Assembly: GCF_000218485.1 (NCBI RefSeq)
Contig: NZ_AFPB01000162.1
Location: forward strand, 1-64,000
DNA length: 64,000 nucleotides
Direction: 5' to 3'
DNA from: Aquimarina agarivorans
Lineage (GTDB): Bacteria > Bacteroidota > Bacteroidia > Flavobacteriales > Flavobacteriaceae
The position numbers and the translations under genes were made by a program. Below the pieces are notes generated by a model. That model ran no database searches, had not been told where the DNA came from, and worked only from the letters and a program-made list of their open reading frames with translations. This document shows positions 3,740 through 50,245 of this stretch, piece by piece; the first letter of the stretch is position 1; every line of letters begins with the position of its first letter.

Positions 3740-4188
3740 TAATATAGCTCAATTGATTGTTATAATTTTAGTTAAATTATGACTTATTCAATTATCAATA
3801 ATAAAGTTACCGTTCAAAATGGTTGTTTTTTTGCATAAAACTTCAAGTTAAAAAATGCCGTAGCAAGGGTTACTACATATTTTCTTACTTTAAAAAAAAA
3901 CTAACTTTTATTTAATTAATTTGAAATCGTTACAATAAGAGCATATTTTATGCATTGTAAATGTTGTATTGAAATAATTATAACGTTAATTAAATTTTAT
4001 ATACGCAAATTTCAATAAATATTTATTTAAAATTGTTGTCTTTTGTAAGCTTAGCGTTACTTTAACGATATATTAATCGAATAGATTTTTCTAATAAATT
4101 AAGGCAATCGTAACTAAACTGACTTAATTTACTATTTGGTAAATTAAGTTATAGTATTAATCAATATAGTGTCTTTATTTTTCGAATT

Positions 4189-4223
4189 TGATGTTCATAT
4201 TTAAATTTGAACATCAATTTTTT
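4189..4223 (+). promoter_or_regulatory. terminator-like hairpin in the GH86 leader
   Basis: TTGATGTTCA (4189-4198) pairs with TGAACATCAA (4208-4217) around an AT loop and is followed by a T run. It sits about 60 nt before the probable GH86 start, so it could be a leader attenuator or simply the end of an upstream transcript. Confidence 0.35.
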
Positions 4224-4280
4224 TCATACATACAAAGAACGCTTTTTTTATACGAGTTAATTATTACTAACACATTGATT

Positions 4281-7087
4281 ATGAATTTAAAAATCTTTTT
4301 TTTTTAATATTCTTCAACCTTTGCATAGGAGCTTTTGCTCAAGTAGAAGTTGATATTAACTTTGATGTTCGTCATACTGTTGGCGGACAAGATACTTTTG
4401 ACCGAGAAAAGTATATTGTTATGCATGCGGATCAGTCCGACGGTGATTACAACAGAGAATTAGGAAAACTAGACAGTTTACTAGTGCGCTACCGTGCAAA
4501 TTACGGAAGGGGTACAGGATTAATGCGTTTCATTTCGAGCCAAGTAACAGAAGATCCTACCAGACCAGGTTTTGCTGATCCGACAAGTATTGAATTTTTT
4601 GGAAATAGATCAACTGTAAATTATGCAAATTTTCAAACAGGAAAACATGCTACTCAAACTAGAGGCGGTGTTATAACTGCGGCGCAAGATCGTCCATTTT
4701 TTCCTGATGGTACTTTAACAGATTCTGGAAATTTTGCTTTTTCTACTGCTGATGGTCCAGCTGATGATGATTTTGGTACTGCTACAGGGGAATTTATGGG
4801 ACGATTTTTAAGAGCAGCTTATGGGAACGATCCAAATAGCGGTATGGATGGACCTCCTAGGCCTATTTGGGTGGAAGCCATTAATGAGCCATTTTTTCCT
4901 TTATTTGATTTTGCAAATGATAATCCAGCTACAGCTGAAGAAATTTTTGAATTTCACCGTAGTGTAGCCAGAGAGGTTAAAAGATTCAATCCCGATGCTA
5001 AAGTAGGTGGTTTTACTAATGCATTTCCTGACCTTCAGTTTTTTGGAGCAAAAGGTAATGATCAGCGTATTTTTGGACAATGGGATCAACGTTGGGAAGG
5101 GTTTATAAATACTTCAGGAGATCAAATGGATTTTTATTCAGTTCATTTATATGACTTTCCAAGTATTGGAGGGGGTTTGGAATTGTTGCGTAAAGGAGGA
5201 AACAATGAGGCAATTTTGGATATGATTGAACATTACAATACGATCCGTTGGGGCGAGGTAAAACCATGGGTTATTTCTGAGTATGGTACTCAGTTAAATG
5301 ATTTTTTTAGTCAAAACTGGACACCTGGCAGAGATTGGTTTATTTTAAGAGCATTTTCATCAATGATGATGCAGTTTATGGAAAGACCCGATGTTATTGA
5401 AAAAACGGTGCCTTTTGTATTGGGAAGGGCCGAATTTTTATATGCTGGGGCAGCTAACCCTGGTTTTGTGTATCCTTGGCGAATGATGCGCCGAGCTGAA
5501 GAGTTCCCGTTACCATCAGGTATTGGAATTAACCAAGCAAATGCTTTTCCGCAGTTTCCTAATAATCAACCGCCAGATGATCAAAAATATGATTTTACTG
5601 AAGTAGTTAAATTTTATGAATTATGGGCAAATGTAGATGGTACTAGAGTGGACACTAAATCGTCGGACTTAGATATTATGGTAGATGCCTATGTAGATGC
5701 TTCAAATAACAAAGCTTATGTAATTTTAAACAGTCTTGAAGATGAAAATACGAGCATAAACCTAAATCAAATAGGTATTGATGCCGCAAATGTTTCTGAA
5801 GTTGAAATTCAACATTTATTTTTAGGATCAAATGGAAATCTTTCATTGACTAAAGTACAATCGGGTACAGCTCCTGAAACTGTTGTGGTTAATGAAGATG
5901 CAACTATGATTATAGAGTATACCTTTGCTACAGCACCATCTGTTTCCAACACTTCCGAAGAAAGAAAGATTTATGCCTTATCGGCAAATCCTAATCTTCC
6001 TGCGGCGGATCAAGGGACTGTTTTTCCAAGAACTATACAAGCAAATCAACCAATTACATTTATTATTCCAGGAGTAACAAAGGGTAGTTTTGGTGAAGCT
6101 ACATTGCGAATAGGAATTGGTAGAACAATTAATACACCAATTATTCCAGTGGTAACCGTCAACGGTACCGAAATTGAAGTTCCTGTAGATTTTAGAGGTG
6201 ATGATCAATCAGACAGAGCGCAACGTGCCGCTGGTCAGCGAATATTTTTTGGTTTATTAGAGGCGGACGTCCCTTATGACTTGTTAATAGCAGGTGATAA
6301 TACGGTGGAAGTAACCTTTCCTACGGAAGGGGGAGCGATAAGTAGTTGTGCCTTGCAAACATTTGAATTTACTAGAGAAGTTACAAGAACAAATTCCAAT
6401 GACCGAACAAGGTTTTTAAGTTTTAATAATCAAGCGTCATTTATTTTGTCAGGCGATGATACTCCAACGCTAGAAGTTGGTAGCGATTTTGAATTTAATA
6501 TTAGTTATGCTACGGGTCTATTAAATGCAGAGGAAGAGGAGTTGCTAAATATTTCCACTGATATTTTAAGGTTAACACCAGCAGGAGCAGTCGTGGGTAG
6601 AACTGCATTTGACTTTGCAGTACCTCAAGGAAGTGAAAACGCTGATTCAGAAGTAATTTATACGTTTACCGTACCTGAATTTTTTGCTCAAGATAATTTA
6701 CAAGATTTAGATACTACGAATCCTTTACCAACAACTCCAGCCGAGTTAGGGAATGATAGGTTAGTATTGCGTATTGTAATGTCAATAAATAATGACACTA
6801 TTTTTGAAACGGTACAGACTGATGTTAATATTGTTAACAACGGGACATTATCAACTGAAAGTTTTACAAACGGAATTACCGATACAGTTACGGTGTACCC
6901 CAATCCAACAACATCAAAATTAACAATTTCAGAAGAAGTAAATAGCTGGAAAATTTATGATTTATCAGGAAAAATAATTTATAAAGGTGAAGCTTCAACA
7001 ATTAAAGTAGATCAACTTGCTGAAGGTTTATATTATATAATTTTGGATGATAATAAAACTCAGGTATTCAAGTTTGTGAAAAATTAA
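4281..7087 (+). CDS. GH86-like beta-agarase/porphyranase with T9SS tail (frameshifted signal peptide)
   Basis: Secreted glycoside hydrolase for red-algal galactans. The ATG at 4281 encodes MNLKIFFF and meets a stop at 4305 inside a T10 run (4296-4305). One extra T restores a signal peptide ending GAFAQ and one 935-residue protein; without it the longest frame starts at 4421. In the repaired numbering the probable acid/base is Glu of EAINEPF (about 202) and the nucleophile Glu of ISEYG (about 333); this spacing of about 130 matches the two catalytic glutamates known in GH86. Beta-sandwich regions follow. The last 75 residues are a T9SS sorting domain (VYPNPTTSKLTI to QVFKFVKN). A good terminator follows. 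GH86 is recognised from memory of motifs; another clan GH-A family is possible. Confidence 0.72.
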
Positions 7088-41903: not shown

Positions 41904-42473
41904 TTATTTCCTAATGATTTTAACAGTTGAATCTGAGCCAATTTTTATTATTGCAGAAGGTTTTTTATGTTTACTATTTAAAGGAGTTTTACACACATAA
42001 TCCACCAATTTTATAAGTTCTGGATTAATATCTTCAAAAGTTTTAGGTGTAGGGTTTCCGCTAAAATTGGCTGAAGTTGAAACTAAAGGCTTTTTAAATT
42101 TTCGAATTAGTTTTCCAACAAAAGGATCTCTAACTACTCGGATTCCTAAAGAATTATCTGAAGCAATGATGTTTTCGGCAACTCTTATCGGATTATCATA
42201 GATAATAGTTGTTGGTTTTTTGGCATATTTCAACACGTCGTAAGCTACTTCAGGAACTTCTTCCACGTATTGTTGTAGCATTTTAAAGTCGCTGACTAAA
42301 CAAATTAATGACTTGTCTGCACCACGTTGTTTTATTTTATTTAATTTATCAATGGCATCACTATTTACAGCGTCGCAACCTAATCCCCATACGGTATCAG
42401 TAGGATATAAAATAATTCCTCCGCGTTTTAAGTGAGTAATAATGGTTTCCGTTTCTAGTTTAAGATCAATCAT
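41904..42473 (-). CDS. tsaC: L-threonylcarbamoyladenylate synthase
   Basis: Makes threonylcarbamoyl-AMP from threonine, bicarbonate and ATP for the t6A37 modification of tRNA. The 189-residue Sua5/YrdC domain is complete: IILYPTDTVWGLGCDAVNSD, the lysine-rich KIKQRGADKSLICLVSD, LGIRVVRDPFVGKLI and PLVSTSANFSGNPTP. No C-terminal Sua5 extension. The ATG at 42473 is preferred over a start two codons upstream. An isolated gene; convergent with the small ORF region. Confidence 0.93.
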   Translation of the reverse strand: MIDLKLETETIITHLKRGGIILYPTDTVWGLGCDAVNSDAIDKLNKIKQRGADKSLICLVSDFKMLQQYVEEVPEVAYDVLKYAKKPTTIIYDNPIRVAENIIASDNSLGIRVVRDPFVGKLIRKFKKPLVSTSANFSGNPTPKTFEDINPELIKLVDYVCKTPLNSKHKKPSAIIKIGSDSTVKIIRK

Positions 42474-42701
42474 GCACAAAAAATTAATGAGCTACAAAAA
42501 TACTTAAAAGTCTACATTTTTGACCTATATTTCAAAAGAAGGGAAGGTACTGTAGTGTAATTGTTCGTTAAGTATGCTTAAACTAATTTTACACATATTG
42601 TTACTAAAAAGGAAATTCTATTAGATCCAATTCAAGCATCAGGGGATAAAGAACTTTTTTTTACTAGAAATAAAATTTTAGAAATGGATTAAACGTCTTG
42701 A

Positions 42702-43691
42702 CTAAGTAATTTTATAATCAGTACCAATTTTTTTTATAACCGCTTCTATATGCTCAGCCAATTCAATGCTTTTAGCATGTGTCATCACAGGACTTTCTAA
42801 CTTTTTTTCATTAATTAAAGATTGCATGTGCATTGCTTCAAATTGATACCCATTTCCTTGCTCATACTTTGGGTAAGTAGTTTCATTGCCGTTTTTATCT
42901 ACAATTTTTAATTCAGTAGGGCCATAAAATTGAGGACCTAAAATTGCTGATCCATTTTCAAATTGAATTTCCACTGAGGTGGGTGTATTCTCGCGTAAGC
43001 TACTAAATAGATGCGCCTCAACTGAATTGTGGTAAGTAAATTTCATGGTACAGCTTTCATCAACCCCAGTAGTTCCTATGACTGCGTTTGTAGAAATTGA
43101 ATCAGGTTTTCCTAGTAGTGTCAAACAAGCATAAATAGGATAAATTCCAATATCAAAAATACTTCCACCACCTAGTTTTTTATCAAATAACCGACTCATA
43201 GGATCAAAGTCAGATTTAAATCCGAAATCAGCCTTTAATTGTGTAATTTTCCCCAAGCTCTCGGAAACGACAAGCTCCTTTAAACGGGTAAAATTAGGTA
43301 AAAAAGTAGTCCACATTGCTTCCATGAGCAAGCAATTATTATCAATAGCAATTTGACATAGCGTTTTAACTTGGGCGACACTCATGGTCATGGGTTTTTC
43401 ACATAAAACAGCTTTTCCATTTTCAAGACATAATTTTGCGTTTTCAAAATGAAAAACATGTGGCGTAGCCACGTAAATAATATCAATTTCAGGATCTTCT
43501 GCCAAAGCTTGATAGTTATTATAAGCTTTTTGAGCTCCGTATTTTTCTTTAAAAGCTGCAGCTTTTTCGTGGTTTCGACTAGCAACTGCTAACAATTTTG
43601 CATTAGTTACAAACTGTAAATCGCTAGCAAAAGTGTTGGCAATATTTCCTAAACCTAATATTCCCCAATGTATTTGTCTTGTAGTACTCAA
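42702..43691 (-). CDS. Gfo/Idh/MocA family NAD(P)-dependent oxidoreductase
   Basis: A sugar-type dehydrogenase of 329-341 residues. The Rossmann start is HWGILGLGNIANTFASDLQ, then AVASRNHEKAAAF and the catalytic-lysine motif LCEKPMTM; the C-terminal fold includes GGGSIFDIGIYPIYACLTLLG. Closest in pattern to dihydrodiol/xylose dehydrogenase-type members. No ATG fits. TTG at 43691, directly after the symporter stop, is chosen; a TTG at 43727 inside the symporter end is the alternative. It is probably cotranscribed with the symporter and PIG-L genes, suggesting a sugar-related role. Confidence 0.88.
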   Translation of the reverse strand: MSTTRQIHWGILGLGNIANTFASDLQFVTNAKLLAVASRNHEKAAAFKEKYGAQKAYNNYQALAEDPEIDIIYVATPHVFHFENAKLCLENGKAVLCEKPMTMSVAQVKTLCQIAIDNNCLLMEAMWTTFLPNFTRLKELVVSESLGKITQLKADFGFKSDFDPMSRLFDKKLGGGSIFDIGIYPIYACLTLLGKPDSISTNAVIGTTGVDESCTMKFTYHNSVEAHLFSSLRENTPTSVEIQFENGSAILGPQFYGPTELKIVDKNGNETTYPKYEQGNGYQFEAMHMQSLINEKKLESPVMTHAKSIELAEHIEAVIKKIGTDYKIT

Positions 43692-43692
43692 C

Positions 43693-45357
43693 TTATTTTT
43701 TTTTAAAATTTGATAGTATTGCAGCAAGTAAAATTACCAATACACATCCTAATAAATTTAACCATAAAAACGGCAATATATCCGAAAAGTAAACACCCAT
43801 AACAATGAATTGTGTGAGTAATGCCCCAATAAAAACTGCATTAGAGGTTATTTTTTTAAAGAAAAAAGCAATGAGAAAAATGCCCAAAATGTTTCCGTAA
43901 AAAATTGATCCTATAATATTGACTAACTGAATTAAATTATCAAATAATGGTGCAATACAAGCTACAGCTATGGCGATTATCCCCCAAATTAAAGTAGTTA
44001 ACTTGGTTAAATTCATTAATTGCGTCCCTTTTTTAGGCTGTGAAACATTTGGTTGATACAAATCCACAACTGTAGTAGTAGCAAGGGCATTTAATTCCGA
44101 TGCAGTGGAGGACATAGCTGCTGAAAGGATCACTGCAAGTAATAACCCAATGAGTCCCTTAGGTAAATGATGCAAAATAAAGTGTATAAACACGTAATCT
44201 TTATCGTTAGATTCCACTTCAGGAGCAACCATATCAATTAAAGTAATAGAGGCTTCTTTATTTTTTTGTAATTTAAAATTTAATGCCTGTAATTGATCTG
44301 CTAAACCCTCATTATCATCATAATTATGATACGATTTATAAATTTTCTGTTTTGCCAACTCTAAACTCTCTTTTTCATTTTTTAGGGTAACGTAAGCAGC
44401 TGCTTGGCTGGAATCCATCACCGCTTTTTCGGCCTGCGGATTAAAACTTAAAGGCGCAGTATTAAATTGATAAAAAACAAATACCATTACACCAACAAAT
44501 AGTATAAAAAACTGCATTGGTACTTTTAATAGCGCGTTGAATAATAATCCCAACTGACTTTCCCTGATAGATTTACTTGATAAATAACGCTGCACCTGAC
44601 TTTGATCGGTTCCAAAATAGGAAAGCATTAAAAAAGTTCCTCCAATTAGTCCAGTCCAAATAGTATACCTGTTTTTTAAATCAAAAGAGGTATTGATTAA
44701 ATTGATTTTATCATTTGCTTTAGCCAAACAGAAGGCTTTATACAAATTCATATCATTGGGCAGGGAAGTATAAATAATAAAAAAGGCAGCAAACATACCG
44801 GCAAAAATTACTGCCATTTGTTGTTTTTGGGTTACAGTAACAGCTTTTGTACCGCCACTTACCGTATAAATAATAACCAATACTCCAACGCATATGTTTA
44901 ACCACACTAAAGGCCAACCTAAAACAACTGAAAGTACTATTGAAGGAGCATAAATGGTAATCCCAGTGGCTAAACCACGCTGAATTAAAAATAAAACGGC
45001 AGTTAGTACTCGTGTTTTTTTATCAAAACGAGACTCTAAATATTCATAAGCTGTGTAAACCTTTAATTTTTTATAAAGTGGAATAAAAATTAAACAAATA
45101 ATTACAATGGCTAATGGCAATCCAAAATAAAATTGAACAAAGCCCATGCCCGAAAAATAGGCTTGTCCCGGTGTGGATAAAAAAGTAATTGCACTGGCTT
45201 GGGTTGCCATTACCGAAAGTCCGATTGCCCACCAAGGCGTTTTTTCATCCCCTTTAATATATTCATGTGCTGTAGTCACCGCTCTGGTTTTCCAAACTCC
45301 GTAACCAACAATAAATCCAAGGGTAAGTAAAAGTATTAACCAATCAATTCCACTCAT
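43693..45357 (-). CDS. sodium:solute symporter (SSS family)
   Basis: A 554-residue inner-membrane transporter with about 13 helices. Family landmarks are DWLILLLTLGFIVGYGVW, MATQASAITFLSTPGQAYFSG, GGTKAVTVTQKQQMAVIF, FGTDQSQVQRYLSSKS and AVILSAAMSSTASELNALAT. It takes up sugars, sialic acid-like compounds or similar with sodium. A hydrophilic insert at about residues 305-380 separates two helices. Ten nt upstream ends a 30-residue one-helix ORF, and before that the PIG-L deacetylase; all are on the minus strand, so uptake and deacetylation of an amino sugar is a plausible joint job. Confidence 0.92.
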   Translation of the reverse strand: MSGIDWLILLLTLGFIVGYGVWKTRAVTTAHEYIKGDEKTPWWAIGLSVMATQASAITFLSTPGQAYFSGMGFVQFYFGLPLAIVIICLIFIPLYKKLKVYTAYEYLESRFDKKTRVLTAVLFLIQRGLATGITIYAPSIVLSVVLGWPLVWLNICVGVLVIIYTVSGGTKAVTVTQKQQMAVIFAGMFAAFFIIYTSLPNDMNLYKAFCLAKANDKINLINTSFDLKNRYTIWTGLIGGTFLMLSYFGTDQSQVQRYLSSKSIRESQLGLLFNALLKVPMQFFILFVGVMVFVFYQFNTAPLSFNPQAEKAVMDSSQAAAYVTLKNEKESLELAKQKIYKSYHNYDDNEGLADQLQALNFKLQKNKEASITLIDMVAPEVESNDKDYVFIHFILHHLPKGLIGLLLAVILSAAMSSTASELNALATTTVVDLYQPNVSQPKKGTQLMNLTKLTTLIWGIIAIAVACIAPLFDNLIQLVNIIGSIFYGNILGIFLIAFFFKKITSNAVFIGALLTQFIVMGVYFSDILPFLWLNLLGCVLVILLAAILSNFKKK

Positions 45358-45367
45358 AAAACTGTGA

Positions 45368-45460
45368 CTATTTTGATAACCAAAAAAAGAAAATAATGTA
45401 TACTAGATTAGCAATTAAAACCCACGTATACCATTTTTCCCACTTAAAATTAGACTTCAT
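45368..45460 (-). CDS. 30-residue single-helix membrane protein linked to the symporter
   Basis: ATG at 45460 starts one nt after the PIG-L stop (45462-45464) and ends with TAG at 45368-45370, 10 nt before the symporter ATG. The peptide is MKSNFKWEKWYTWVLIANLV followed by YIIFFFWLSK: a basic/aromatic N terminus, one membrane helix and a short tail. The tight packing in the operon and the clean topology support a real gene. It might be an accessory subunit of the symporter, comparable in idea to small subunits of other SSS transporters, but this is not shown. Confidence 0.65.
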   Translation of the reverse strand: MKSNFKWEKWYTWVLIANLVYIIFFFWLSK

Positions 45461-45461
45461 T

Positions 45462-47933
45462 TTACAAGTTAATTATGTTAACTAACAATTTGTAGGCTCC
45501 AGTAACTCCTTTGGGTAATTCTCTAAAAAAACTGATTCCAGTGTATACAAAATGCCCATTGCCATAGTCTCCAATCAATAAACTCCCTTTGGTTAATGGC
45601 TCATCGACATCATTCATACCCAAAATTGGCGTAAATTCCTTACCCCATTGATCAGGGAAATACAAACCACGCTCTTGTACCCAATCATTAAAATCAGTAT
45701 TGGAAATTTTGTTAGGATTATTAAGTACCTGATGTTTGGGAGCTAAAAATGTTACTTTGGCTGTTTCGTCGGTGACCCGCTTTCGCGAAAGCGTAAATTG
45801 AAAAGGGAAAAAATTATTTATTGAACTTGGAGCTGCCCGGTATGATTTTGTGGTGTATTGAACAATTACAGTGCCGCCAGCTTTTACAAACTTTTCAAAT
45901 TTAGTTTTATTATTTAACAAATGTGGGAATTTGTTTAAAGCGCGTATTCCTAAAATAATGACATCAAAATTACTAATATTAGTAGCATAAAAATTTGAAG
46001 CATCAATCGGGGTTATTTGTAATCCTAATTCACTCAAATTAGCATCAACACTATCCCCAGCTCCTTGTATGTATGCTATTTTTTTATTTCCTGTTTCTAT
46101 AGAAAAATTAACTAAACGAATTTCTGCCTTATGGATAATTTGCTGTTTAGGAATATGGTCATAGTTAATATGCTCAGCATAACTACTATATTGTTTATCA
46201 TTTACGGTAGCAGTAACTTTAGCGGTTGCAATAGCAGCATCTAAAGGAGGGATTACTTTAAATGAAAATGAAGTTTCGTTGCCTTTGGTAATATTAAAAT
46301 CTATTTTTTCGGGCTGAACAATCCACTCATCTGGTACATCAATGCGCAGCGTACCTTTTTGATCTTTAGTAGCTGCCAATAATGATACGGTTACTTGTTT
46401 TTCGTTTTGTTTTGGGAACAAAATTAACTCCTTGGTTGGTTTTACATTAATTTCAGGAATGACAAATAAAGGCTCATATACCTCGCCAGCCACTCGATCC
46501 CTATATTTAAATACTATTGGTTGTTGACGGCTAATTAAATATCCGTCCACATCTAACTTAAAATCTACCATAAACGGGGTAGGAGTTTCGGGTAATCCAA
46601 TATTCAGTTTGTTGTTAACTGTATACATTCCTGATGAATATTCTTCTTTCAAATAATAAGGTGTGGTGTAATTTTTATGGGGCGAAAGCACCGTTGTTTT
46701 TTTTATGAAGGCGCTATTGTTTTCTAATTTTTGAACTCCATTTAATTGTTTGTTATTAAAATGTACGCTGTTCAATGTCACAGGATAATTGCTTCTGTTT
46801 ACTGCTTCAATTGAAATTTGCAATGAGTCTGCAGGAGTAATTTTCCCTGTATTGGTATAGGCCTTTAAATAAATACCCAAACAATCCGTAATTATAGTTT
46901 CTAATAGCGGTAATTTTTCTGTTTTCCAGTGAGAATCTTTTAATTGACTAATTTTTTTATGAATTTTTAATAAATCCGTAACATTTGCACTTGGGTTGTT
47001 AAAATTAAAATCGGCTAGTAAAGCACTTACCATTTCTGCAACAACAGCGCCACCATCGGTACGATTCCAAGTGGTATCAATCCCTTCAAAAAAATTAGTT
47101 GCTTTTTTCCCTTTAATAAGTTCAAAATATTCTTTTCGCTTTCCGCGAGAAGATAGCATTCCAAACCCTTGTGATTTATGTTGACTTCTACTTAAAGCAG
47201 CAATCTCAGTGTTGGATTTTCCAATGTTGGGATAATAAGTACCCACGTCAACTGAAATATCTTTGGTTACCGAAGCTTCAAAGTCGGATTTATTTTTGAA
47301 AAACCACGAAGATTTATTTAAGTACACAGCATTGGGTTGGTGTATACTCGTATGTTGCAATTGCTCAGGAAATTTTGATGCATCACCAACGGCATCAAAA
47401 GCTTCTACACTAATCATTGCCGAAGTAGTGTGGTGACCGTGTGTAGTACCAGGAGTACGGTGATCAAACCGATTAATAATTACGTCAGGCTTAAATTTTC
47501 GGAAAGCCCAAACTACATCATGTAGTAATTGTTCTTTTTCCCAAAAGGTGAACGTTTCTTTAGGATTTTTTGAATAGCCAAAATCATTTGCACGTGTAAA
47601 CCATTGCCCCCCACCATCAATAGAACGTGCTGCTAGCAATTCATGTGTTCTTATAACACCTAATGCTTCACGCAACTGTGGACCAATTAAATTTTGTCCA
47701 CCATCACCACGTGTAAGCGATAAATAAGCTGTAGTAGCGTGTACTTTGTTAGCAAAATGCGAAATTACATTGGTATTTTCGTCATCTGGGTGTGCGGCTA
47801 CATACATCACTTTACCCAAAAATGCGAATTTTTGAAGTTTTTGATATATACCTACACTGTTTGGTTGATTTTGTTGTGCGTTTGATGTAAAACTAAGACT
47901 AACTAATAGCCCAATGAGTATCTTTTTTTTCAT
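45462..47933 (-). CDS. secreted PIG-L family deacetylase
   Basis: An 823-residue exported protein: signal peptide (LLVSLSFTSNAQ), then a PIG-L N-deacetylase domain with the zinc motif HPDDE (VAAHPDDENTN), TRGDGGQNLIG, RSIDGGGQW and the second histidine site THGHHTTSAM. The C-terminal 500 residues are beta-sandwich modules and a GATase-like segment (VIVQYTTKSYRAAPS). Start ATG at 47933 gives the signal peptide; the frame runs upstream to 47984, overlapping the thioredoxin-like gene. It probably removes N-acetyl groups from glycans or small thiols outside the cytoplasm. It heads the deacetylase/small-protein/symporter/oxidoreductase run. Confidence 0.9.
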   Translation of the reverse strand: MKKKILIGLLVSLSFTSNAQQNQPNSVGIYQKLQKFAFLGKVMYVAAHPDDENTNVISHFANKVHATTAYLSLTRGDGGQNLIGPQLREALGVIRTHELLAARSIDGGGQWFTRANDFGYSKNPKETFTFWEKEQLLHDVVWAFRKFKPDVIINRFDHRTPGTTHGHHTTSAMISVEAFDAVGDASKFPEQLQHTSIHQPNAVYLNKSSWFFKNKSDFEASVTKDISVDVGTYYPNIGKSNTEIAALSRSQHKSQGFGMLSSRGKRKEYFELIKGKKATNFFEGIDTTWNRTDGGAVVAEMVSALLADFNFNNPSANVTDLLKIHKKISQLKDSHWKTEKLPLLETIITDCLGIYLKAYTNTGKITPADSLQISIEAVNRSNYPVTLNSVHFNNKQLNGVQKLENNSAFIKKTTVLSPHKNYTTPYYLKEEYSSGMYTVNNKLNIGLPETPTPFMVDFKLDVDGYLISRQQPIVFKYRDRVAGEVYEPLFVIPEINVKPTKELILFPKQNEKQVTVSLLAATKDQKGTLRIDVPDEWIVQPEKIDFNITKGNETSFSFKVIPPLDAAIATAKVTATVNDKQYSSYAEHINYDHIPKQQIIHKAEIRLVNFSIETGNKKIAYIQGAGDSVDANLSELGLQITPIDASNFYATNISNFDVIILGIRALNKFPHLLNNKTKFEKFVKAGGTVIVQYTTKSYRAAPSSINNFFPFQFTLSRKRVTDETAKVTFLAPKHQVLNNPNKISNTDFNDWVQERGLYFPDQWGKEFTPILGMNDVDEPLTKGSLLIGDYGNGHFVYTGISFFRELPKGVTGAYKLLVNIINL

Positions 47934-47958
47934 AAACAATTTTTCCGCTAAGGGATAT

Positions 47959-48510
47959 TTATTTCCATTTAATTCCACAGCCAATACTAGGAACCTGAGC
48001 TCCTTCGTAACTGTTGTTCTCTAAAATACTATCTAGTGCCATTGCCAAATCCTTACCTGTTGCAACACCCATGTTAGGTGTTGTAGCATCAAACCTTCCG
48101 CGGTAAGCAAGCTTTAAGTCTTTATCATAAACAAAAATATCGGGTGTACATTCTGCACCGTAAGCTTTTGCCACACTTTGATCTTCGTCGTACAAATAAG
48201 GAAAACAATACTGATTTTTTTTAGCAAATTCAGTCATTAATTCTGGCGCATCAGCCGGATAATTTTCAATGTCATTACTGCTAATGGCTATAAATTTTGC
48301 ACCCATTGCCTGATACTTATTAGCTAAAGTTGCAAGTGCTTTATTGATATGAATTACAAAAGGACAGTGATTGCATATAAATAAAACTACAGTAGCTTTA
48401 TCCGATTTCAGTTCGTTTAAGCTTGCCTTTGAATTAGTTAATGTATCTAATAAATTGAAGTTAGGAGCTTGTGTGCCTAATGAAATCATTTGCGATTCGG
48501 TTGCTGCCAT
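47959..48510 (-). CDS. thioredoxin/peroxiredoxin family protein
   Basis: A 183-residue AhpC/TSA-fold protein with the redox pair CNHC (Cys46, Cys49) in LFICNHCPFVIH, GAKFIAISSNDIENYPADAP, and the cis-proline region AECTPDIFVYD. No signal peptide is visible, so it should be cytoplasmic, reducing peroxides or disulfides. The pattern matches a widespread group annotated simply as thioredoxin family protein. It lies 25 nt upstream of the PIG-L start, so it may share its promoter. Confidence 0.9.
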   Translation of the reverse strand: MAATESQMISLGTQAPNFNLLDTLTNSKASLNELKSDKATVVLFICNHCPFVIHINKALATLANKYQAMGAKFIAISSNDIENYPADAPELMTEFAKKNQYCFPYLYDEDQSVAKAYGAECTPDIFVYDKDLKLAYRGRFDATTPNMGVATGKDLAMALDSILENNSYEGAQVPSIGCGIKWK

Positions 48511-48705
48511 TGTATACTATTTTATATTGCTAGAAATTTACGAATTCTGATAATTTTTTTGTTGAAATTAACGGATATTTAATAATCAAACGGATTTTAA
48601 TTTGTAAATTTTTATCATAACGGGTAAAATACTTTCAATCATATAATTATGGTTAAAAATTTTAAATGTTTGTTTTTTTTGGCTTCGGTAACTAAAATAA
48701 AGTGG

Positions 48706-48713
48706 TATTTTTG
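48706..48713 (+). promoter_or_regulatory. TAnnTTTG promoter box for the helicase
   Basis: TATTTTTG on the plus strand, 26 nt before the TTG start of the helicase gene. Confidence 0.4.
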
Positions 48714-48739
48714 TATTCCCAATTTTTAAACTTGGCTAC

Positions 48740-50245
48740 TTGCAATCAATACAAAAAACATCTGGTATCAAAGAATTATATCCTTATCAAAAGGATGATA
48801 TAAATAAAATTTTTGAACGAATTAATAGCAAACCCGATGGCTATAATTTGTGCTATCAATTACCAACTGGTGGAGGAAAAACTGTAGTTTTTTCTGAAAT
48901 TGTTCGTAGGTATATTGAAGAACAACAAAAAAAGGTACTCATCCTTACACACCGTATTGAGTTGTGTAACCAAACTTCGAAAATGCTTGAAGGCTTTGGT
49001 GTGACCAGTAAGGTAATTAACAGTAAGGTTAAAGAAATACCTAATGAGGAAGATTACATGTGTTTTGTTGCCATGGTTGAAACGCTTAATAATCGTTTGA
49101 ACGAGGAAAAGGTTGAGTTTAAAAACCTTGGTATGGTTATTATTGATGAAGCGCATTACAATTCATTCAGAAAATTATTTAGACATTTTGAAAATTGCTT
49201 CATTTTAGGGGTAACAGCAACTCCCTTAAGTTCCAATATTAAAATGCCAATGAAAGATAGCTACCGCGAACTTATATGTGGGCAGCCAATTTCAAACTTA
49301 ATCGAACAAGGCTTTTTAGCAAATGCAGTAACTTATTCATTTGATGTAGGTTTAAGTACTTTAAAAGTAGGTATTAACGGGGATTATACCGTTAAATCAT
49401 CGGAAGATTTGTATTCTAATGCTTTTATGCAAGAAAAGCTATTGTATGCTTATCACCAAAAGGCCAAAGGTAAAAAAACCCTGATTTTTAATAATGGAAT
49501 TAATACCTCCGTTCAGGTATATGAAACTTTTAGAATGGCAGGCTTGGATGTTCGCCATTTAGATAATACACATAGCAAGCAGGAACGTAGAGATATCTTA
49601 CGCTGGTTTAAGGAAACACCTGATGCTATTTTAAGTTCAGTCGGAATTTTAACTACTGGATTTGATGAACCCACTATTGAGGTAATCATACTCAATAGAG
49701 CAACAAAATCGTTGACTTTATATTTTCAAATGATAGGTAGAGGATCACGTTCTTTACCAGGTAAAAAAGAATTTAACGTCATTGATTTAGGAAATAATGC
49801 GGCGCGTTTGGGATTATGGAACGCTGATGTTGATTGGCAAAAAATATTTCGTTTACCTGATTATTACCTAGAAAATCTAGTAAGTGATGATGAAATAGAG
49901 CGGCAGTTTAAATACGTAATGCCTCCTGAAGTTAGAGCAGAGTTTGCGAATTCCGAAGATATTTCTTTTGATGTAAAACAGGAATACGATGCTGTAGTTA
50001 ACAATGGTGAAAAGTCTAAAATGGTTTTAGAACGTTCTATTGAACAACACGCAAAAATTTGCGTTGAAAATAGCGAAGATGTTTTTGATGCCCGTATTTT
50101 GGCAAAACTATTGGATGAAGAAATTGAATACCGTATTCGAATGTACTCTTACTGTATTAGTAACAGTACCAAAAATTACCGCAGTTGGTTGGAGGAAGAT
50201 TACAAACGTAAATTGCGTTTACGAATTAATCAATTGATCGATTAG
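48740..50245 (+). CDS. DEAD/DEAH-box superfamily 2 helicase
   Basis: A 501-residue ATP-dependent SF2 helicase. Motif I PTGGGKT is at 42-48, motif Ia ILTHRIEL, motif II IIDEAHY (about 134-140), motif III VTATPL, and motif VI QMIGRGSR near residue 330, with FNNGINTSVQVYETF and GFDEPTIEVI in the second RecA domain. The start is TTG at 48740; no in-frame ATG precedes motif I. Layout resembles the helicase subunit of type III-like or UvrB/RecQ-like proteins, but no methylase or nuclease gene is adjacent. The role is unknown. Confidence 0.88.
   Translation: MQSIQKTSGIKELYPYQKDDINKIFERINSKPDGYNLCYQLPTGGGKTVVFSEIVRRYIEEQQKKVLILTHRIELCNQTSKMLEGFGVTSKVINSKVKEIPNEEDYMCFVAMVETLNNRLNEEKVEFKNLGMVIIDEAHYNSFRKLFRHFENCFILGVTATPLSSNIKMPMKDSYRELICGQPISNLIEQGFLANAVTYSFDVGLSTLKVGINGDYTVKSSEDLYSNAFMQEKLLYAYHQKAKGKKTLIFNNGINTSVQVYETFRMAGLDVRHLDNTHSKQERRDILRWFKETPDAILSSVGILTTGFDEPTIEVIILNRATKSLTLYFQMIGRGSRSLPGKKEFNVIDLGNNAARLGLWNADVDWQKIFRLPDYYLENLVSDDEIERQFKYVMPPEVRAEFANSEDISFDVKQEYDAVVNNGEKSKMVLERSIEQHAKICVENSEDVFDARILAKLLDEEIEYRIRMYSYCISNSTKNYRSWLEEDYKRKLRLRINQLID

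Follow-up and report, generated by a model that had tools for sequence, protein, structure and literature searches.

The peptide locus

The window, by which we mean the whole stretch of 64,000 nucleotides of Aquimarina agarivorans contig NZ_AFPB01000162.1 that was analysed, carries a small open reading frame (ORF) between a gene for a PIG-L domain protein and a gene for a solute:sodium symporter (SSS), all on the minus strand (Table 1). The minus strand from 45460 to 45368 translates into the 30-residue peptide MKSNFKWEKWYTWVLIANLVYIIFFFWLSK. A single nucleotide separates the stop codon of the PIG-L gene (45462) from the peptide ORF, and 10 nt separate the peptide ORF from the ATG of the symporter (45357), which confirms the coordinates and the exact fit between two genes given in a preliminary description of this DNA. 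The window is AT-rich (GC 0.32), and the list of ORFs overlapping positions 42000-50000 has 78 entries of 25 aa or more; ORFs of this size are thus common, and the case for a peptide gene rests on conservation. A search of its own genome returned a single copy of the peptide (E <= 10). For the adjacent symporter we infer 13 helices. An ORF of the Gfo/Idh family (42702-43727, listed with a TTG start) shares 35 nt (43693-43727) with the 3' end of the symporter gene on the same strand, and its true start is uncertain.

Table 1. Coordinates of the peptide ORF, its parts and its neighbours in the window
Feature	Position	Strand	Details
One-helix protein ORF	45368..45460	(-)	30 codons, ATG to TAA; stop 45368-45370
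Predicted transmembrane helix	45377..45433	(-)	About residues 10-28, N-in/C-out; approximate, transferred from homologue L083
Conserved W7-x3-Y11, N-terminal membrane boundary	45428..45442	(-)	Near-invariant in 54 members; matching W and Y invariant in 14 members of alignment A4
SSS (solute:sodium) symporter, usual neighbour	43693..45357	(-)	554 aa; Pfam SSF 2.9e-40; TIGR00813 2.7e-69; SiaT-like fold of homologue L083
PIG-L domain protein, frequent but not constant upstream neighbour	45462..47984	(-)	Up to 840 aa, start codon uncertain; Pfam PIG-L 1.1e-11

Conservation and purifying selection

With the symporter as the sole query, 80 named loci were retrieved, and a peptide profile was built from 11 peptides, namely 10 from those loci and the window's own. 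Each of the 80 loci contained one profile match (E < 0.01), which immediately precedes the symporter and shares its strand; this includes all 70 loci that had supplied no seed to the profile. Over the 80 loci, the peptide and the start of the symporter match overlap by 1 nt at one extreme and are 72 nt apart at the other. An alignment of 54 peptides (A1) has the consensus MxxxxKxxWKKxYTxVLxANAxYIxxFYxIMxxFx, in which N18, Y21 and F25 are invariant and W7, Y11, L15 and Y26 (F in the window) near-invariant. The N terminus had been described as Trp-rich; W7 bears this out across the 54 members, but W10 and W13 do not, and since W7 is the only near-invariant N-terminal Trp, richness in Trp is not a trait of the family.

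The peptide evolves under purifying selection. In 16 independent pairs with a symporter nucleotide identity of at least 80%, we counted 134.4 synonymous differences over 317.2 sites and 97.6 nonsynonymous differences over 1305.8 sites, a dN/dS of 0.126 (binomial p = 1.5e-37), about twice that of the symporter in the same pairs (0.057). An earlier estimate of 0.44, from 40 pairs picked by low pS, was discarded because such a choice biases dS downward, and was replaced by the pairs picked by symporter nucleotide identity. The preliminary description had named two signs that would speak against the peptide, its absence from relatives and equal rates of synonymous and nonsynonymous change; the 80 loci and the dN/dS ratio show the opposite in each case. 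The 30-residue ORF is a real, conserved protein-coding gene and not a chance ORF.

Association with one symporter clade

The position of the peptide gene follows one clade of SSS symporters; the peptide is absent beside the other SSS genes examined, and is independent of the PIG-L gene. This genome has four other SSS genes, and no profile match was found upstream of any of them, nor upstream of any of 21 distant SSS genes (22-29% identity to the symporter), these being the loci with a BLAST match to the symporter among 29 further SSS loci; one of the 21, L240, has upstream of its SSS gene a hydrophobic ORF of 28 aa that is unrelated to the peptide. Seven more distant SSS genes (23-29% identity) likewise had no profile match upstream, making 28 distant SSS genes without the ORF in all.

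The peptide might instead serve another partner, such as the PIG-L protein or envelope machinery, and simply be co-transcribed with the symporter. PIG-L lies directly upstream in 61 of the 80 loci (and further away in L086), and three genomes hold the ORF away from the symporter, both of which fit such a reading; yet the ORF is kept in the 18 loci with no PIG-L match. Moreover, the five genomes of a 249-genome sample that have a peptide match and no symporter match (G016, G023, G180, G186 and G192, identified by eye) have only weak ORF matches (E 0.19 to 0.87). We consider this reading very unlikely.

Among the loci without PIG-L are 16 from Tenacibaculum. In 13 of them (L031 and 12 others, at about 4060-4890) the large ORF upstream of the peptide is 250-270 aa long, and several of these ORFs carry the motif VNGxxLPKSITWY; in L046, L057 and L059 the large upstream ORF is about 600 aa long.

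Reach in the family and the phylum

Among 249 genomes of the window's own family, the 30-residue query had BLAST matches (E <= 1) in 209, the symporter was matched at E <= 1e-100 in 220, and both were matched in 204, as judged by comparing the tables by eye and counting weak peptide matches up to E 1; adjacency was checked for a part of these BLAST matches, some of which are weak. Sixteen family genomes have the symporter and no BLAST match to the peptide, and 14 of them carry a divergent one-helix ORF in its place (found by eye in L189, at E 0.095 in L192, and at better E values in the others). In the other two of these checked flavobacterial genomes (L188 and L198; 1.7 Mb) there is no peptide at the symporter, and the PIG-L stop directly precedes the symporter gene. 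Across the flavobacterial genomes of 1.6-2.7 Mb (L187-L198), the peptide is often truncated and, as judged by eye, lacks W7 as well, or it is missing altogether, as in L188 and L198.

A search with A1 across 296 genomes from the phylum matched 56 at E <= 0.01, and these include genomes from other classes. Forty regions around peptide matches were read: a symporter homologue adjoins the peptide in 36 and lies about 15 kb off in three, and the remaining one (L165) looks like a chance match. The peptide is found in several families of the phylum and is not confined to one class, and its pairing with the symporter likewise occurs in families and classes besides that of the window. A remark in the preliminary description, that similar short ORFs lie near SSS genes in flavobacteria, is supported by these matches, and the peptide extends beyond flavobacteria too.

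In one genome the same small ORF was seen near both ends of a 3.86-Mb contig (L152 and L153). The PIG-L and symporter frames are broken in one of the copies and PIG-L is broken in the other too; the duplicate ends may come from a circular contig whose overlap was left untrimmed, combined with errors of sequencing.

Distant members and symporters without the peptide

Twenty SSF matches from other families were picked by eye for a shape like that of the window's symporter, and all proved orthologue-like (45-53% identity). A one-helix ORF lies directly upstream of the symporter in 16 of them, 15 recognised by profile (weakly, at E 0.06-0.07, in the case of L252, L257 and L258) and one (L249) by eye, and in 12 of the 16 it overlaps the symporter start by 4 nt. 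The remaining four (L242, L247, L250 and L260) have no one-helix ORF upstream, and together with L267, an orthologue at 42% identity that also has none, they bring the total to five of 21 distant orthologues (42-53% identity) without the ORF. L267 came from a reading of 13 further SSF matches, which comprised the seven additional distant SSS genes without the ORF described above, L267 itself, and five orthologues with the ORF (46-54% identity), these five having been chosen because matches to a profile of distant peptides lie there.

That profile comes from an alignment of 14 distant peptides (A4), in which only the W and Y of W-x3-Y, corresponding to W7 and Y11, are invariant. A profile-profile comparison joined A1 and A4 with a probability of 97.7 and an E value of 2.1e-12, and the best match of A4 in the window's own genome is this very ORF (E 2.8e-4). 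A search of 60 class genomes with A4 gave 21 matches at E <= 4.9e-6, every one of which lies just upstream of an SSF match (coordinates compared by eye); seven of the 21 are outside A4, and five of these seven come from loci new to the analysis.

Symporters without an adjacent peptide (two of the 16 family genomes and five of the 21 distant orthologues) indicate that the peptide is not universally required. Such gaps in distribution fit a non-essential modulator, that is, a conditional regulator that would bind the symporter under some conditions only and tune it up or down or mark it for proteolysis, in the manner of AcrZ; the tuning of transporters by small one-helix proteins has precedents, AcrZ-AcrB among them (PMC7267776). 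The short gaps or overlaps between the two genes in the loci read, on the other hand, suggest matched amounts rather than separate control, and we regard conditional regulation as unlikely, although it is the least unlikely of the alternatives weighed here.

Copies separated from the symporter

Peptide and symporter share a contig but are about 15 kb apart in L205-L207, three genomes that belong to another class, and are adjacent in L208, from the same genus. Of the genes in the intervening block of L205-L207, those for a NagB-type deaminase and a DASS transporter pass the NCBIfam cut-offs, and ROK kinase-like, BshB/PIG-L-like and gluP-like MFS genes fall below them. This gene content gives a hint that the symporter clade may use amino sugars, and with the SiaT-like fold it makes sialic acid or amino-sugar derivatives tentative first candidates for the substrate. 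Within the block (L205:1438-16586, and likewise in L206 and L207), ORFs resembling SusC/SusD and sigma/anti-sigma factors were noted by eye.

The separated copies bear on the idea that the ORF is a cis-acting leader, whose translation, rather than its product, sets symporter expression by translational coupling. The closeness of the ORF to the symporter start, which it overlaps by 4 nt or precedes by a very small gap, fits such an element, but the conservation of the amino acid sequence (the dN/dS of 0.126) argues against it. So do the three separated copies, which lie about 15 kb from their symporter and still look to be under purifying selection, with pairwise dN/dS values of 0.05, 0.15 and 0.14 that stem from two, three and five nonsynonymous differences, at few sites and over an undated separation. 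A leader function is accordingly highly improbable.

Known families and literature

Searches with the 54 members at E <= 1 listed 15 Pfam families (best E 0.0034) and seven NCBIfam families (best E 0.002), the best matches being to families with unrelated descriptions, and the Pfam and NCBIfam matches of five distant members all fell below curated cut-offs. DUF485, DUF997, DUF3311, DUF4212 and MetS were not among the families listed for the 54 members or for the five distant members. No PDB sequence matched the peptide profile at E <= 10, a comparison in which a helix profile of 36 positions has little power. A literature search, with most subscription papers and all preprints outside its range, showed no paper on this peptide family among the titles and abstract openings listed, and prior notice is possible; the main text of a paper on a small membrane protein finder (PMC10903887) contains neither symporter nor Bacteroid nor Flavobacter. 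In the search for an annotated close orthologue, 115 plasmid records had a match, all below 60% identity.

Topology and structural model

Over 105 unique homologues, 373 Lys and Arg residues precede the most hydrophobic 17-residue stretch and 47 follow it; the excess on the N-terminal side holds in all 105, and from it an N-in/C-out topology is predicted. The uniform charge pattern and the single helix of the structural model agree, as predictions, with the clean one-helix topology claimed earlier.

We modelled the Aquimarina locus L083 with AlphaFold2 as one tethered chain made of the peptide, its stop codon read as Gly, the 24-codon gap and the symporter (129 rows); this design joins both chains, and hence is no unbiased test of docking. 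The mean pLDDT was 92.3 and the pTM 0.91. The peptide forms a helix over residues 12-35 of 36 at a pLDDT of 96-97, values that a lone helix can reach too, and the linker (40-58) scores below 50. A first tethered model, from 39 similar rows, reached a pLDDT of 58.3 and was unusable. The symporter part has the SSS fold, and the closest solved structure is SiaT (5nva: Z 44.4, 461 residues, 2.2 A, 28% identity). Nearly all top rows of the structure comparison span the symporter part alone; AgcS (6cse_C, Z 19.8) starts at model residue 8.

Mutual-information covariation over 178 paired sequences (effectively about 90) ranked 142 pairs within the symporter above the best pair between the two proteins. 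N18 or Y21 takes part in 21 of the top 25 inter-protein pairs, and because both residues differ between lineages, the covariation signal between peptide and symporter is probably phylogenetic.

The model also bears on whether the peptide is a 14th helix, at the position of TM13 in SGLT, that the symporter itself lacks. TM13 has the same N-in/C-out orientation; against this reading, SiaT, the closest fold, is not known to need such a helix. The L083 model aligns to chain residues 21-545 of SGLT2 (8hez_A, Z 36.4) and stops there, and in 149 of 158 symporters no hydrophobic segment follows the helix that matches TM12. On TM13 of SGLT2 packs the single helix of MAP17, in a part of the transporter that barely moves (PMC10803289 and PMC10203128). 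However, the small ORF is retained with each of the other nine symporters, whose C terminus does carry an additional hydrophobic segment, and we find a replacement of TM13 quite unlikely. The nine are L047, L050, L070, L075, L081, L094, L102, L110 and L179; in L047, L070, L075 and L102 the extra segment is long enough for two helices.

A candidate subunit of the symporter

Taken on the sequence evidence, the peptide is probably a dedicated one-helix accessory subunit of the adjacent SSS symporter, and we put it forward as a candidate for that role. Encoded with short gaps or overlaps, the peptide would be made together with the symporter and is predicted to enter the inner membrane as a single-pass protein with its N terminus in the cytoplasm and its C terminus in the periplasm, where the W-x3-Y belt is predicted to anchor it at the cytoplasmic (inner) face. 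It would then dock on the lipid-facing surface of the symporter and, by analogy with MAP17 and SGLT2, may aid the folding, stability or activity of the transporter. Weighing against this reading are the symporters that stand without the peptide and the dN/dS of the peptide, about twice that of the symporter.

MAP17 (PDZK1IP1), the partner of human SGLT1 and SGLT2 (SLC5), is the closest working analogy, offered as an analogy rather than as a homology. MAP17 is larger than the peptide and N-out. Both would place one transmembrane helix beside an SSS-fold transporter, but no sequence relation between them was detected in the PDB search, and binding is demonstrated for MAP17, whereas the partner of the peptide is predicted from gene positions. 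The docking site of MAP17 on TM13 also seems absent in most of these symporters (149 of 158), since no hydrophobic segment follows their TM12-matching helix. In the SGLT2-MAP17 complex, MAP17 has been proposed to have a structural role and to support surface expression (PMC10203128 and PMC10803289).

The wider set of comparable systems differs from the peptide in helix number or in transporter family. Small membrane partners are encoded beside several bacterial SSS genes, among them YjcH/DUF485 with ActP, YhdT/DUF997 with PanF, DUF3311 and DUF4212; like the peptide they are small and adjoin an SSS gene, but they are larger than it and have two helices. The subunits MetS (of the NSS transporter MetPS) and KdpF (of KdpFABC) match the peptide in size (about 30 residues) and in having one helix, and are encoded in the operon of their transporter, but they belong to different transporter families, and neither is in the Pfam list for the 54 members. 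For SiaT, the sialic acid SSS symporter (5nva/5nv9) whose fold is closest to the L083 symporter part at 28% identity, we know of no one-helix partner. As a kind, one-helix transporter subunits have been described before; what appears to be new is this family, along with its broad distribution and its link to a single SSS clade.

We tentatively suggest, with somewhat more doubt than confidence, that a dedicated one-helix subunit for one SSS clade, found in many families of the phylum, arose in Bacteroidota independently of the animal MAP17-SGLT2 pair. If this is true, transporters of the SSS fold recruited single-helix partners at least twice, and a shared need would point to a common weak point of the fold, namely the lateral stability of its scaffold side. 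Should the peptide prove to be a subunit, expressing these transporters without it may yield misfolded or inactive protein, and the pair would offer a minimal bacterial system in which to study the reliance of SSS-fold carriers on one-helix partners, which SGLT2-MAP17 explains only in part. Genomes without the peptide, or with the peptide 15 kb from the symporter, are ready-made comparisons. The family is absent from the copies of Pfam and NCBIfam that were searched, yet in 204 of the 249 family genomes, by the same count by eye that includes weak matches, both it and the symporter are matched.
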